Shown piece by piece: positions 29,477 through 33,542 of a DNA stretch of 43,724 nucleotides. Source of the stretch: a virus. The DNA lies in IMG/VR virus record IMGVR_UViG_3300001356_000005, positions 1-43,724 of that record; one strand, given 5' to 3'. Made by a program: the position numbers and the translations under genes. Numbering within the stretch: position 1 is the stretch's first letter; the number at the start of each line of letters is the position of its first letter. The notes beneath the pieces are model-generated. The model was not told the origin of the DNA. It saw only the letters and a list, made by a program, of their open reading frames with translations, and made no database searches.

Positions 29477-32400
29477 ATGGCATCGGTTCCAAGCGTAATC
29501 GGGATTCTCAAGAACATGCGCATGCACGCGCCGCAGCAGATCGACTCGCGGCGCGGCATGACGCTGGTGGGAACGACCTCGCCGGGAAACTTTGTCCATT
29601 CCCTGCGGCGCTTGAATAGCGGAGCCAGTTTCATCCGACTCGCTGGCGCGGACACCAGACTGATCGAACTGGTCTCGCCCACGCTCTTCCCTGAAACCTT
29701 TTCCGGCAATCCGCTGTCAATGGTCCCGTTTCGTCCCGAGCAGTCGCCGCTTCCCTGGATGTATATTGCCGACAGCCTGCAAATGCGAAAAATAAGTATG
29801 GCGCTCGAAGACTTCTTGATGGGAGTTGCGCCACCACTCAGTCCTCCTACGACCGGCTTTGGTCCCGTCTCCTTTCAGGACATCTACGACTTCAGCACGG
29901 AGACAAGCGCGGCGGATTGGATTGCAGGGGGAACGGGCGCGGCCATGGCGCCCTCGGTTCAATTTAGTGCAAACGTAACGGCTATCGTTCCCGACGCAGG
30001 CCCCACCTTCCCGCAGTTTGCCTCGGCTTTTCTGTCCGGCTACACGACCGGGAACTTTGCTTCTGTCCTGCCCAACACGATCGCCATGTTTACGGCTGTG
30101 TCTCTGCCCGCCAATCTGCCCATCACGGGAACCATTGCCGCGGCCTTTGCTTCCTCGACGATCAGCAGCATTGTCTTCCAATCCGGAACGACCGGAGCGT
30201 GCACGATTAAAATCCCGTCCTCCGCAGCGTTGCTGACAAACGGTGCGCTGGTTTACCTGAGTGGAACGGAATACGTGCAGGCAAAAGGATGCGTCCAGAA
30301 TCCCGATGGCAGCTTCACTTTCCAGGCTGTCACGACCTTAACGCACGCGAACGGCGACAGCGTGGTGCCCAAGGATACGGTGCGTTTCTACGTTCCCTAT
30401 TCGTACCCTCCGTCGACCTTCGTCGGGGTGGCGCTGACTTCCTGGGCCATGCAGTCGAGCATGACGCCCGGATCGGCCAACTGGGTGCTGACCGCGTTGA
30501 AGGACCTGTCCACCACCTTGACCAATGGCGTCCGGCAGATCCAGACGACGGGCGCGACGCCGGACACGATTTACCTGGCCATGCAGGTAAACCTAAGCTG
30601 GCCAGACATTACGTCGGTCAAACTTGACTTCGACGTTGACTCCACCACAAACAACTTCAGCGTGAACTATTACAGCTACACAAAAAACAGCGGCTTTCCG
30701 TCGAGCGGTTCGGGGTGGTTTGTGATCGCCATTCCAATCACGAGTCTCAGCCGGATTGGTTCCGATGCCACGCGCACTTTGGCCAACGTCGCCGCGATTC
30801 GCATTACGGTAAACGATGTCGGCACTCCGCAGCAGATTTCCTTTAGCTCGTTTTGGGTTGGCGGAAATTACGGACCTTCCAATGGTTCCGCGCCGGGCTA
30901 TCAGTACCGGGTAACCGCGCGCAGCACCGAGACGGGAGCCACATCAAATGGGAGCCCGGCAACACAGACTGCGGTTTCCACGAGCGCCGGCGGCCAGCCT
31001 GTCGCAATCTACATGGGCAACGATTCCGACCTGCAACTGGCGACCTATGGGGTGTACGACGTCTACCGCTTCGGTGGAACCCTGTTGCAGTGGACCTTTC
31101 TTGGAACGATGCCGAATCCAACGATCGGAGCAACCTCAGTATTTTTCGACGTCTATCCTGAATCGGCGATTGCCAGCAACCCGATCCTGCAAACGGACAA
31201 CTTCCAGCCTTTTCCCACCGTGGACACACCGAAGTCCGGCGTCGTGAACGTGAATGGAAGGACCGTCAGTTGGGTTTCGGGCAACGAGTTCAACGTCAAC
31301 TGGTCGCAGGGAACGCAGATCACGATCAACGGCGTGCTCTATTCTTTTTACCAGCAGCCGGCAAACCAGACGACCGTGGTATTGAACCAAGTAGCCGGGG
31401 AATTGACGAATGTCCCCTACCAAATCGAGCAAGCGACCATCCTCGGAGTTCCGCTTCCCTGCCTGTGGGGACCGTTTTCCCAGGGCACGGCTTCCTTCCT
31501 GTTCGCGGTCGGCGACTTAAATCAGCCAGGGGTACTCTTTTTGACCAAGGGGAACAACCCGGACGCCGGACCGGACACGCTGCAAATTGAAATCACCTCT
31601 CCAAGCGAGCCGCTGATGAATGGCTGCATGTACGATGGAACTTCGTTTGTCTGGTCGTCGGATCGCCTCTTCCGCCTCTATCCGCTCTTTGGCTCCAGCC
31701 TGATCGTCGAGAATGGCGTCATCCAGCAGACGACGGGAACCAACCTGTTTACTCCGATCGAGGTGCCGAATGGAAAAGGCCTGTGGGCGCGGTGGGGCAT
31801 CGCCGTGGGCCCGAAGATCTGGTTCATTGGAAGAGACGGAATTTATGAGACGACGGGCGGCGAGCCGAAGCCAATCACCCTGGGCGATTGGTCGAAACTC
31901 TTTCCGCACGAAGGAGGGCCTGGAGTTTCCATAACCCTGCCTGCCGGCTTTGGGGGACCGCTACTGCCGCCGGATACGACTCAGCCGAACAAGTGGCGCC
32001 TCTCCTACGCGGACGGATATCTCTACTTCGACTACCCGGACCCGAATGGTATCCCCAATACGCTCGTCTACGATACAGAGACCGAATCCTGGGGAGTCGA
32101 CGTCTACAATCCTTTCGTGACGCTGCACTATGGCGAGGAAGGCGCGGGCGTGCATTCTATTCTGCTTGGTACCAGCGCCGCGCAGGTCTGCCAGTTCAGC
32201 CAGAGCGGATTCAAAGACCTCGCGAATCCCGTGCAGTTCGGGCTCGCCTACCCGTTGATGAACGAGGGTGGCGGCGAGTACAGTTTGGTTCGGGAGGCGC
32301 TCTTGGGCATCCTATCGCTTAGTTCCGATTTGAATAGCCTCGTTCTCGACGTTCAGGTCGATCTACAGGTCCTCTCAAACGTCCAGCTTTTCGCCCTCAT

Positions 32401-32611
32401 CGGCGGAGTCGGAGTTTACGAACGGATTTACACGCCCGTCCCGGCGGGCAAAGGCAGGCTGCAAGGGTGGTCGCTAATTGGGGATGGCCCCTTCACGCTC
32501 GTCATGCGTGACTGCGAAATGCACGGCCGCAAGTGGGGATCCGATGGACCATGGGAAAAAATCAATCCGTTCAGCTCGCAGCGGCGCGTCCAGACGCCTG
32601 TGATAGGCTAA
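29477..32611 (+). CDS. Large tail protein, probable tail nozzle or hub
   Basis: The 1044-residue product is the second largest and has no signal peptide. It starts at ATG 29477, behind GAGG. The N-terminus is PSVIGILKNMRMHAPQQIDS. The C-terminal half contains beta-propeller-like blades (YDGTSFVWSSDRLFRLYPLF, KGLWARWGIAVGPKIWFIGR, WRLSYADGYLYFDYPDPNG), as in the nozzle proteins that cap podovirus tails (P22 gp10 or T7 gp12 types). Assignment to that role is by pattern and context. Its stop codon lies at the edge of the inserted element that follows. Confidence 0.6.
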   Translation: MASVPSVIGILKNMRMHAPQQIDSRRGMTLVGTTSPGNFVHSLRRLNSGASFIRLAGADTRLIELVSPTLFPETFSGNPLSMVPFRPEQSPLPWMYIADSLQMRKISMALEDFLMGVAPPLSPPTTGFGPVSFQDIYDFSTETSAADWIAGGTGAAMAPSVQFSANVTAIVPDAGPTFPQFASAFLSGYTTGNFASVLPNTIAMFTAVSLPANLPITGTIAAAFASSTISSIVFQSGTTGACTIKIPSSAALLTNGALVYLSGTEYVQAKGCVQNPDGSFTFQAVTTLTHANGDSVVPKDTVRFYVPYSYPPSTFVGVALTSWAMQSSMTPGSANWVLTALKDLSTTLTNGVRQIQTTGATPDTIYLAMQVNLSWPDITSVKLDFDVDSTTNNFSVNYYSYTKNSGFPSSGSGWFVIAIPITSLSRIGSDATRTLANVAAIRITVNDVGTPQQISFSSFWVGGNYGPSNGSAPGYQYRVTARSTETGATSNGSPATQTAVSTSAGGQPVAIYMGNDSDLQLATYGVYDVYRFGGTLLQWTFLGTMPNPTIGATSVFFDVYPESAIASNPILQTDNFQPFPTVDTPKSGVVNVNGRTVSWVSGNEFNVNWSQGTQITINGVLYSFYQQPANQTTVVLNQVAGELTNVPYQIEQATILGVPLPCLWGPFSQGTASFLFAVGDLNQPGVLFLTKGNNPDAGPDTLQIEITSPSEPLMNGCMYDGTSFVWSSDRLFRLYPLFGSSLIVENGVIQQTTGTNLFTPIEVPNGKGLWARWGIAVGPKIWFIGRDGIYETTGGEPKPITLGDWSKLFPHEGGPGVSITLPAGFGGPLLPPDTTQPNKWRLSYADGYLYFDYPDPNGIPNTLVYDTETESWGVDVYNPFVTLHYGEEGAGVHSILLGTSAAQVCQFSQSGFKDLANPVQFGLAYPLMNEGGGEYSLVREALLGILSLSSDLNSLVLDVQVDLQVLSNVQLFALIGGVGVYERIYTPVPAGKGRLQGWSLIGDGPFTLVMRDCEMHGRKWGSDGPWEKINPFSSQRRVQTPVIG

Positions 32612-32618
32612 GATCATG
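32611..32618 (+). repeat. Left 8-bp direct repeat (target-site duplication)
   Basis: AGATCATG at 32611-32618 is repeated exactly at 33361-33368, just outside the two inverted repeats. The first A is also the last base of the TAA stop of the large tail gene. Confidence 0.75.
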
Positions 32619-32640
32619 GGGAATTATATAGATGACTCCC
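32619..32640 (+). repeat. Left terminal inverted repeat
   Basis: This 22-bp repeat reads GGGAATTATATAG and ends TGACTCCC. It pairs with 33339-33360 with a single mismatch at its position 14. Confidence 0.75.
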
Positions 32641-32663
32641 GCAAGTAAACAAAGGAGATACAA

Positions 32664-33050
32664 ATGAGCAATGAGCACGTCCACCCGCTTTTAAGGGAAG
32701 TTTTAGATAATATTGTCGTGGCACACGATAGTCCTTCGATGAATTACTGGCTCGAATGTATTTCTGACGCTTGTGAATCAGCGGGAGTGTTGGCCTCGCG
32801 GGATCAGGTACGTCAAATTGCCGATGACGTGAAAATCTCGCACGACAATTACGGAATGGCATTTCCGGTTCCGAGCGGCAATCCGATGGAGTCTGAATTT
32901 AAACGACTTAAACGATTGTTTGCGGAGGAAAAAGAGAAAGTGTTTTGCATGGAATGTGGCGGACGCGGACGAATTATCTCTCAAGGACCGTCTCACTCTT
33001 CGGATAGTCAGTGCTGGAAATGCCACGGAGAAGGCAAGCACAAGCCGTGA
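32664..33050 (+). CDS. Cassette gene 1: protein with a DnaJ-like zinc-binding tail
   Basis: The 128-residue product starts behind AAAGGAGATACAA, 23 bases inside the left inverted repeat. The N-terminal 85 residues are helical (HPLLREVLDNIVVAHDSPSM). The C-terminus has FCMECGGRGRIIS and CWKCHGEGKH, two CxxCxGxG motifs of the kind that bind zinc in the DnaJ cysteine-rich domain. It may bind a protein or nucleic acid. Codon use is more AT-rich than in neighbouring genes, consistent with separate origin. Confidence 0.65.
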   Translation: MSNEHVHPLLREVLDNIVVAHDSPSMNYWLECISDACESAGVLASRDQVRQIADDVKISHDNYGMAFPVPSGNPMESEFKRLKRLFAEEKEKVFCMECGGRGRIISQGPSHSSDSQCWKCHGEGKHKP

Positions 33051-33056
33051 AATCAA

Positions 33057-33066
33057 GGGAGTCAAC
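33057..33066 (+). repeat. Internal copy of the inner inverted-repeat end
   Basis: GGGAGTCAAC at 33057-33066 equals the first ten bases of the right inverted repeat (33339-33348). In both places it lies shortly after a stop codon. Here it also serves as a Shine-Dalgarno sequence for the small frame at 33067. Confidence 0.55.
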
Positions 33067-33090
33067 ATGAAAAGAGGACACTTGTTGTGA
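33067..33090 (+). CDS. Seven-codon leader-like frame
   Basis: ATG 33067 has GGGAG five bases upstream and encodes MKRGHLL before TGA 33088-33090. The stop overlaps the GTG start (33087) of cassette gene 2 as GTGA. It could couple or regulate translation of that gene, or be the remnant of a deleted gene. Confidence 0.35.
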   Translation: MKRGHLL

Positions 33091-33338
33091 GTGAGTTGAA
33101 AATGGGAGAAGGTGAGTTTTATCGAGGGCGGCAATTCTGTGAGCACATTGTAGGGCAACCACACATTCGGGACACAGATTATCCTTGCGACGTGTTCACA
33201 CCATGCACTTATGGTGCTGGAACTGGTCAATGTAGCGGAGACGGTCACTACATGTGCCGAGAGTGTGAGGAGCACAATGAGGCACTTTTCGTAGCAATCG
33301 AGAGCGGTGAAATTAACGAGTTAGCACATGAATGGTGA
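33087..33338 (+). CDS. Cassette gene 2: small cysteine- and histidine-rich protein
   Basis: The product has 83 residues from GTG 33087; ATG 33102 is an alternative. It has FCEHIVGQPH, then DYPCDVFTPCTY, QCSGDGHYMCRECEEH: six cysteines and several histidines spaced for one or two zinc sites. The stop is at the very edge of the right inverted repeat. The function is unknown. Confidence 0.55.
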   Translation: MSELKMGEGEFYRGRQFCEHIVGQPHIRDTDYPCDVFTPCTYGAGTGQCSGDGHYMCRECEEHNEALFVAIESGEINELAHEW

Positions 33339-33360
33339 GGGAGTCAACTATATAATTCCC
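33339..33360 (-). repeat. Right terminal inverted repeat
   Basis: This 22-bp repeat reads GGGAGTCAACTATATAATTC and ends CC on the plus strand. Reading outward it contains TATAAT (33351-33356), a perfect -10 box nine bases before the ATG of the next phage gene. Confidence 0.75.
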
Positions 33361-33368
33361 AGATCATG
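33361..33368 (+). repeat. Right 8-bp direct repeat (target-site duplication)
   Basis: AGATCATG is the exact copy of 32611-32618. Its ATG is the start codon of the following frame. Confidence 0.75.
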
Positions 33369-33542
33369 GAAGAGGAAGATCTGTACCCACTACTCACTAA
33401 GGGTTGTTCCCTACTTGTACTACTGAGGGGAGAACGCAAGCCGAATTGGACACCGCGACCGATAAAAGCGGATTCGTCCGGTTTATGGTACCGTCTTGGG
33501 AGGACCAGAATTTATCTGCCGATCACCAACTGTCCGCAATGA
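33366..33542 (+). CDS. Small unknown protein whose start lies in the target-site duplication
   Basis: An uninterrupted 58-residue frame starts MEEEDLYPLLTKGCSLLVLL and ends at TGA 33540-33542, just before the next gene. Without the inserted cassette its ATG would lie four bases after the tail gene stop, the normal spacing in this phage. The TATAAT in the right inverted repeat may now provide transcription. The function is unknown. Confidence 0.5.
   Translation: MEEEDLYPLLTKGCSLLVLLRGERKPNWTPRPIKADSSGLWYRLGRTRIYLPITNCPQ

Follow-up and report, generated by a model that had tools for sequence, protein, structure and literature searches.

The insertion that separates two genes in the virion operon of the phage studied here is almost certainly a non-autonomous mobile insertion cassette (MIC) of the IS1595 family. 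The window, i.e. the whole stretch of DNA that was analysed, is a virus record of 43,724 bases with portal and terminase genes. The element is assigned to IS1595 as a non-autonomous derivative because longer relatives with the same ends encode an IS1595-family transposase, and as the window has no transposase, the element is not an insertion sequence itself but only a derivative of one. The kind of element (MIC) and the IS1595 family are known; new is that one branch of the family lives largely in phages and combines a standard leader with exchangeable passenger genes, and this cassette family, which is found mostly in uncultivated environmental phages, was previously uncatalogued.

The original prediction, made from the letters alone, had described 22-bp inverted ends with AGATCATG on both outer sides, and this is exact: the ends pair at 21 of 22 positions, and when extended to 25 nt they still match at 92%. 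Also the predicted AT-richer insert of 742 bp with two Cys-rich genes is found as described, with 47% GC compared with 58% in the window and two co-directional reading frames of 128 and 83 aa, and the predicted lack of a transposase holds for the IS1595 type: the window encodes none, with a best tblastn E of 0.02. Further copies of the 22-bp end with up to three mismatches are absent from the window, and shuffled sequences give an expectation of 0. The duplicated target consists of AT in five of its eight bases, and the first A of its left copy doubles as the final base of the tail-gene stop TAA; the 1044-aa virion structural (tail) gene is left intact by the 742-bp insertion. Without the cassette the joined flanks read TAAGATCATG, in which the stop of the tail gene is four bases away from the next ATG. 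This spacing had been predicted and it stands, whereas the ATG is doubtful as a gene start: the 58-aa ORF that it opens may not be a gene, since it has no match in family searches and since the 15-nt motif CTGTACCCACTNCTC inside it (window about 33381-33395) is intergenic in the related Tunturiibacter phage Tunturi_1 (L105, 12157-12171). The motif is possibly a conserved regulatory element. Read outward, each end of the cassette (32619-32640 and 33339-33360) contains a perfect -10 box, TATAAT, and an insertion could thus yield hybrid promoters for the neighbouring genes.

Table 1. The cassette, its parts and its neighbours in the window
Feature	Position	Strand	Remarks
Upstream neighbour, 1044-aa virion structural protein	29477..32611	+	Tunturiibacter phage virion structural protein, 6e-64
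Left 8-bp target-site duplication AGATCATG	32611..32618	.	From the sequence
Left terminal inverted repeat GGGAATTATATAGATGACTCCC	32619..32640	+	End recurs in viral contigs (83 stretches) and genome contigs (18)
Possible leader peptide MTPASKQRRYK	32632..32667	+	Begins within the repeat; its TGA overlaps the ATG of passenger gene 1
Family leader GCAAGTAAACAAAGGAGATACAA	32641..32663	+	Ribosome-binding site AAAGGAG at 32651-32657; common to other cassettes
Passenger gene 1, 128 aa	32664..33050	+	N-terminal part phrog_27975; C-terminal part CxxCxGxG-like
Truncated internal family right end AAATCAAGGGAGTCAAC	33050..33066	+	Between both passenger genes
Passenger gene 2, 83 aa from GTG	33087..33338	+	Cys-rich, no family; stop directly adjoins the right repeat
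Right terminal inverted repeat GGGAATTATATAGTTGACTCCC	33339..33360	-	From the sequence
Right 8-bp target-site duplication AGATCATG	33361..33368	.	From the sequence
Downstream neighbour, 58-aa ORF, doubtful gene	33366..33542	+	No family match

Behind its left repeat the window cassette runs on as GCAAGTAAACAAAGGAGATA. The short peptide that begins in this repeat may be translationally coupled to passenger 1, and it is not conserved in all cassettes. Passenger 1 matches a phage protein family (phrog_27975, 2.3e-26), and its C-terminal part gives a match below the cut-off to DnaJ_CXXCXGXG; judged by its sequence, this Cys-rich part probably binds zinc. The protein has only insignificant matches among PDB sequences, and its AlphaFold model, calculated without an alignment, reaches a mean pLDDT of 50. 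Passenger 2 gave no match in family searches, and an in-frame ATG at 33102 is an alternative start that would result in 78 aa. The Cys motifs allow the guess that both passengers might have a regulatory or nucleic-acid-binding role. Close relatives turned up for neither passenger, and in the case of passenger 1 neither in viral contigs nor in phage records, so that a benefit of the passengers is unsupported by conservation; they are small phage-type accessory genes and may benefit the phage. Relatives that have the same two genes without the terminal repeats, which the original prediction had named as evidence against mobility, did not turn up.

The short sequence between the two passengers corresponds to the inner part of the right ends of full elements (in L174: AAAATCAAGGGAGTCAACTATATAATTCCC). 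Among the fetched loci, AATCAAGGGAGTNAAC is restricted to this site in the window (33050-33066) and to right ends of the family, where it is carried by L022, L027, L050/L118/L174, L071/L117/L166 and L086. In the simplest reading of these sequences, passenger 1 would formerly have had a right end of its own and passenger 2 would have been joined to it by fusion or deletion, which suggests that the window cassette may have originated through fusion of two cassettes.

The family was defined by scanning viral contigs and 257 billion bases of genome contigs with GGGAATTATATAGWTGACTCCC. The exact end occurs in 83 stretches of viral contigs and in 18 stretches of genome contigs, which corresponds to an enrichment of about tenfold or more in viral sequence per base if the mean viral contig is assumed to have at most 40 kb. 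Pairing of the ends gave 49 elements, including that of the window, whose 8-bp flanks differ at no more than one position. In 48 of these 49 the flanks agree in all 8 bp and never beyond, and they represent 42 distinct insertions, the target duplications of which are 78% AT and weakly palindromic. Two extra end pairs in L012 and L076 have flanks that match over 7 bp, and the unpaired family ends are in part explained by the edges of stretches or contigs. Those members that are 1.3 to 2.2 kb long have a transposase gene, and its product of about 306 aa matches the NCBI IS1595 model NF033547 with E values of 1e-57 to 7e-61 and is above the cut-off for the Pfam families PF12762 and PF12760 (IS1595 DDE and zinc-ribbon). 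Both the recurrence of the ends elsewhere and a full transposon with the same ends, which the original prediction had proposed to look for, have thus been found. Besides the transposase, some full members (L058, L174, L071) also have passenger genes. Cellular copies that are more distantly related end in sequences like GGACATTATATACTTGACAA, which can be recognised as a cousin of the end in the window.

The transposases with these ends form one clade with a support of 99/95, and 19 viral and 7 cellular rows belong to it, a ratio that is biased by the fact that the sample for the tree was picked by the ends. The clade is absent from 50,697 phage records (best match 34% identical) and from 72,556 plasmids (best match 44% identical). 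Among 385 alphaproteobacterial genomes, a sample without this bias, the ends are present solely in the genome that was used as centre, and the transposases of the 384 others are at most 49% identical over the full length, apart from one partial match of 65%. Several carrier contigs hold genes for tape-measure protein, terminase, portal or DNA transfer. L007, L026 and L079 have flanks in common with an Acetobacteraceae MAG, and some of the contigs regarded as viral, namely these three, may actually be bacterial. As for the cellular copies, one contig has a terminase gene and one a ParA gene, ordinary chromosomal sequence is also seen as a location, and in the remaining contigs the few phage genes that were tested for were not clearly present. 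A description of a phage-borne IS1595 group was not found in the searchable literature, which mostly excludes subscription papers.

The leader of the window cassette, with its ribosome-binding site, is found again in L012, L027, L076 and L108 and also in two L071 cassettes; some of these copies differ from it by one to three changes. Including the window there are seven such short leader cassettes, and six of them then carry different passenger genes, which start at element positions 42 to 47. The passengers behind the shared leader are mutually dissimilar, and that of L076 resembles only that of L096, which has a variant leader. The seventh, a 56-bp unit at L108 1270-1325 with the duplication TAAGAATT, consists of the end, the leader and a right-end remnant and has no gene. 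Elsewhere in the family, the passenger takes its start codon (MTP...) or its stop (behind ...ESTI or ...ESSI) from the repeat. A single viral contig of 101 kb carries a full element and two cassettes with the shared leader, which means that donor and cassette can share a genome. The orientation of the passengers agrees with that of the flanking genes in all eight clear cases and is unclear in 14 of 22 cassettes. Cargo elsewhere in the family includes cytosine-5 and N6/N4 DNA methyltransferases and a Mom-family protein; the members in question are L014, L016, L028, L039, L058 and L026/L090. DNA methyltransferases and Mom are known anti-restriction functions of phages, and these cargo genes are candidate counter-restriction genes.

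A base-precise empty site is available for L092, a full copy from a Novosphingobium MAG: when its flanks are joined, they align across the junction with about 15 genomes of the same genus, the best with 84% over 288 bp and unchanged length, i.e. with a single copy of the 8-bp target. The tail protein alone retrieved no relatives of the window phage, and an alignment with the homologue of the Tunturiibacter phage retrieved two (L106/L107), which are the nearest ones and 38% identical in the tail protein. In these, the stop of the tail gene overlaps the ATG of the next virion gene, and there are no repeats and no cassette at this place; in the Tunturiibacter phage, which is more distant, another small gene comes directly after the tail gene. 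The empty site that had been proposed as a check is thus seen base-precisely for L092 and at the level of gene order for the window phage; for the window itself, with nearest relatives at just 38%, a base-precise one was not found, and the joined flanks of the phage members also gave none among all fetched loci. A short match at L055 was rejected as an empty site, as it represents a shared promoter-like motif. The L055 cassette (about 1078-1351) is located just upstream of this motif, TTGAAAATAAGTGTTGACA, which is also found at 13382-13426 of L168, a large phage contig.

Recurrent ends, 8-bp duplications, full elements and empty sites all agree with the mobile-element reading of the original prediction. 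Most likely an IS1595-type transposase, made by a full element of the host, of a prophage or of a co-infecting phage, or by a co-resident copy, would bind the inverted repeats and act in trans. Judging from the ends, the duplication and the co-resident full copies, the window cassette would be mobilised by such a cognate transposase, inserted at an 8-bp target with duplication of the latter, and placed at a gene junction in the orientation of the operon. Read-through transcription of the operon would then cover the passenger genes, and these would be translated from the cassette's own ribosome-binding site, which lies at a constant position shortly behind the left end.

One could also think of a moron, i.e. 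an insertion by illegitimate recombination in which the repeats serve as promoter or terminator and the duplication is coincidental. Accessory genes commonly sit between virion genes, and the TATAAT in both outward-read ends would suit a promoter, but chance copies of the end are expected zero times, the same ends flank a transposase gene, and they occur with 8-bp duplications at 42 distinct sites. This explanation has practically no probability, and the survey of paired ends at the 42 sites rules it out along with mere coincidence. It is improbable, too, that the cassette is a transporter IS that once had a transposase together with the passengers and lost the transposase in place: the full members with passengers exist, and a short copy of the family right end lies inside the window cassette, but the window holds no remnant of a transposase, and the layout of leader plus passenger recurs in short cassettes with different genes. 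Of more weight, though still unlikely, is the view that the cassette transposed only once and is now a fossil, fixed as neutral cargo without any benefit. The missing transposase, the one mismatch between the ends and the passengers without close relatives are in line with this, as is the 56-bp remnant in L108, where ends have persisted without a gene. Against it stand the open frames of both passengers, the match of passenger 1 to a phage protein family, the intact ribosome-binding site and the perfect 8-bp duplication, which indicates a recent insertion; moreover, phage genomes usually shed useless DNA.

With respect to known systems, IS1595-family transposons have 25-bp inverted repeats, 8-bp duplications and AT-rich targets (PMC5704250). 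The IS1595 insertion sequences, as far as they are covered by the sources consulted, are alike in transposase family, repeats of about 22-25 bp, 8-bp duplication and AT-rich targets (Siguier, Gagnevin and Chandler 2009, via PMC3129680, PMC5704250). The window element agrees with IS1595 derivatives in having ends in common with transposase-encoding elements, an 8-bp duplication and an AT-rich target; unlike the autonomous members it encodes no DDE transposase, and the transposases of its partners form a clade of their own, mostly in viral contigs. In the terminology of PMC3129680, IS ends around passenger genes without a transposase make a MIC, and this is the composition of the window element. 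It is no MITE, as 742 bp with two genes are neither short nor non-coding (the 56-bp unit of L108 would fit that class), and lacking a transposase it is no transporter IS (tIS). MIC231 of IS231 likewise has IS-like ends around passengers, no transposase and a presumed mobilisation in trans (De Palmenaer et al. 2004, via PMC3129680), but, in what that source conveys, it is a Bacillus element of another IS family, whereas carriers of the window type are phages, and several cassettes of the window family have a standard leader with ribosome-binding site before different genes. The IS1595 transporter elements tISCpe8 and MTnSag1/tISSag10 share the IS1595-type ends, the 8-bp duplications and a passenger gene, but they have their own transposase, carry resistance genes, occur in Firmicutes and are open to mobilisation through conjugative elements (PMC5704250), whereas the window element has phage-type genes and no transposase. 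Integron gene cassettes, to the extent that they are treated in PMC9892861, are also small gene cassettes that enter phages, but they need an integron integrase and attC; the ends in the window are transposon repeats with target duplications, and the perfect duplications and paired repeats point elsewhere than to an integron cassette.

The gain of accessory genes by unrelated phages is largely credited to homologous and illegitimate recombination. Tentatively, and with slightly less than even confidence, it can be proposed that the IS1595 branch acts as a gene shuttle between phages, in which full copies and leader cassettes circulate among unrelated environmental phages, swap or accumulate passengers, including the DNA-modification genes that counter restriction, and insert at gene junctions for expression with the operon. 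If this is true, a transposon family that brings small genes into phages together with a ready-made translation start would be a defined and testable route to phage mosaicism, the same route could spread counter-restriction genes, and the 22-bp end with the 8-bp duplication would be a searchable signature that delimits such cargo.

Some minor observations concern the other members. At the transposase-side end of full copies (L054, L064, L091 and others), the combination of TTGACT, within the repeat, and TAGTTAT, conserved about 17 bases inward of it, resembles a sigma-70 promoter for the transposase. The six contigs L033, L047, L049, L063, L067 and L083 have one identical junction with AAAGTCAA adjoining the end, and a second end was not found in them; this is perhaps a solo end or one with a very diverged partner. 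In five contigs of the deltaproteobacterial MAG STA_58 (L089, L094, L098, L101, L103), the end lies within about 210 bases of the stretch edge, which suggests a multicopy element that broke the assembly.
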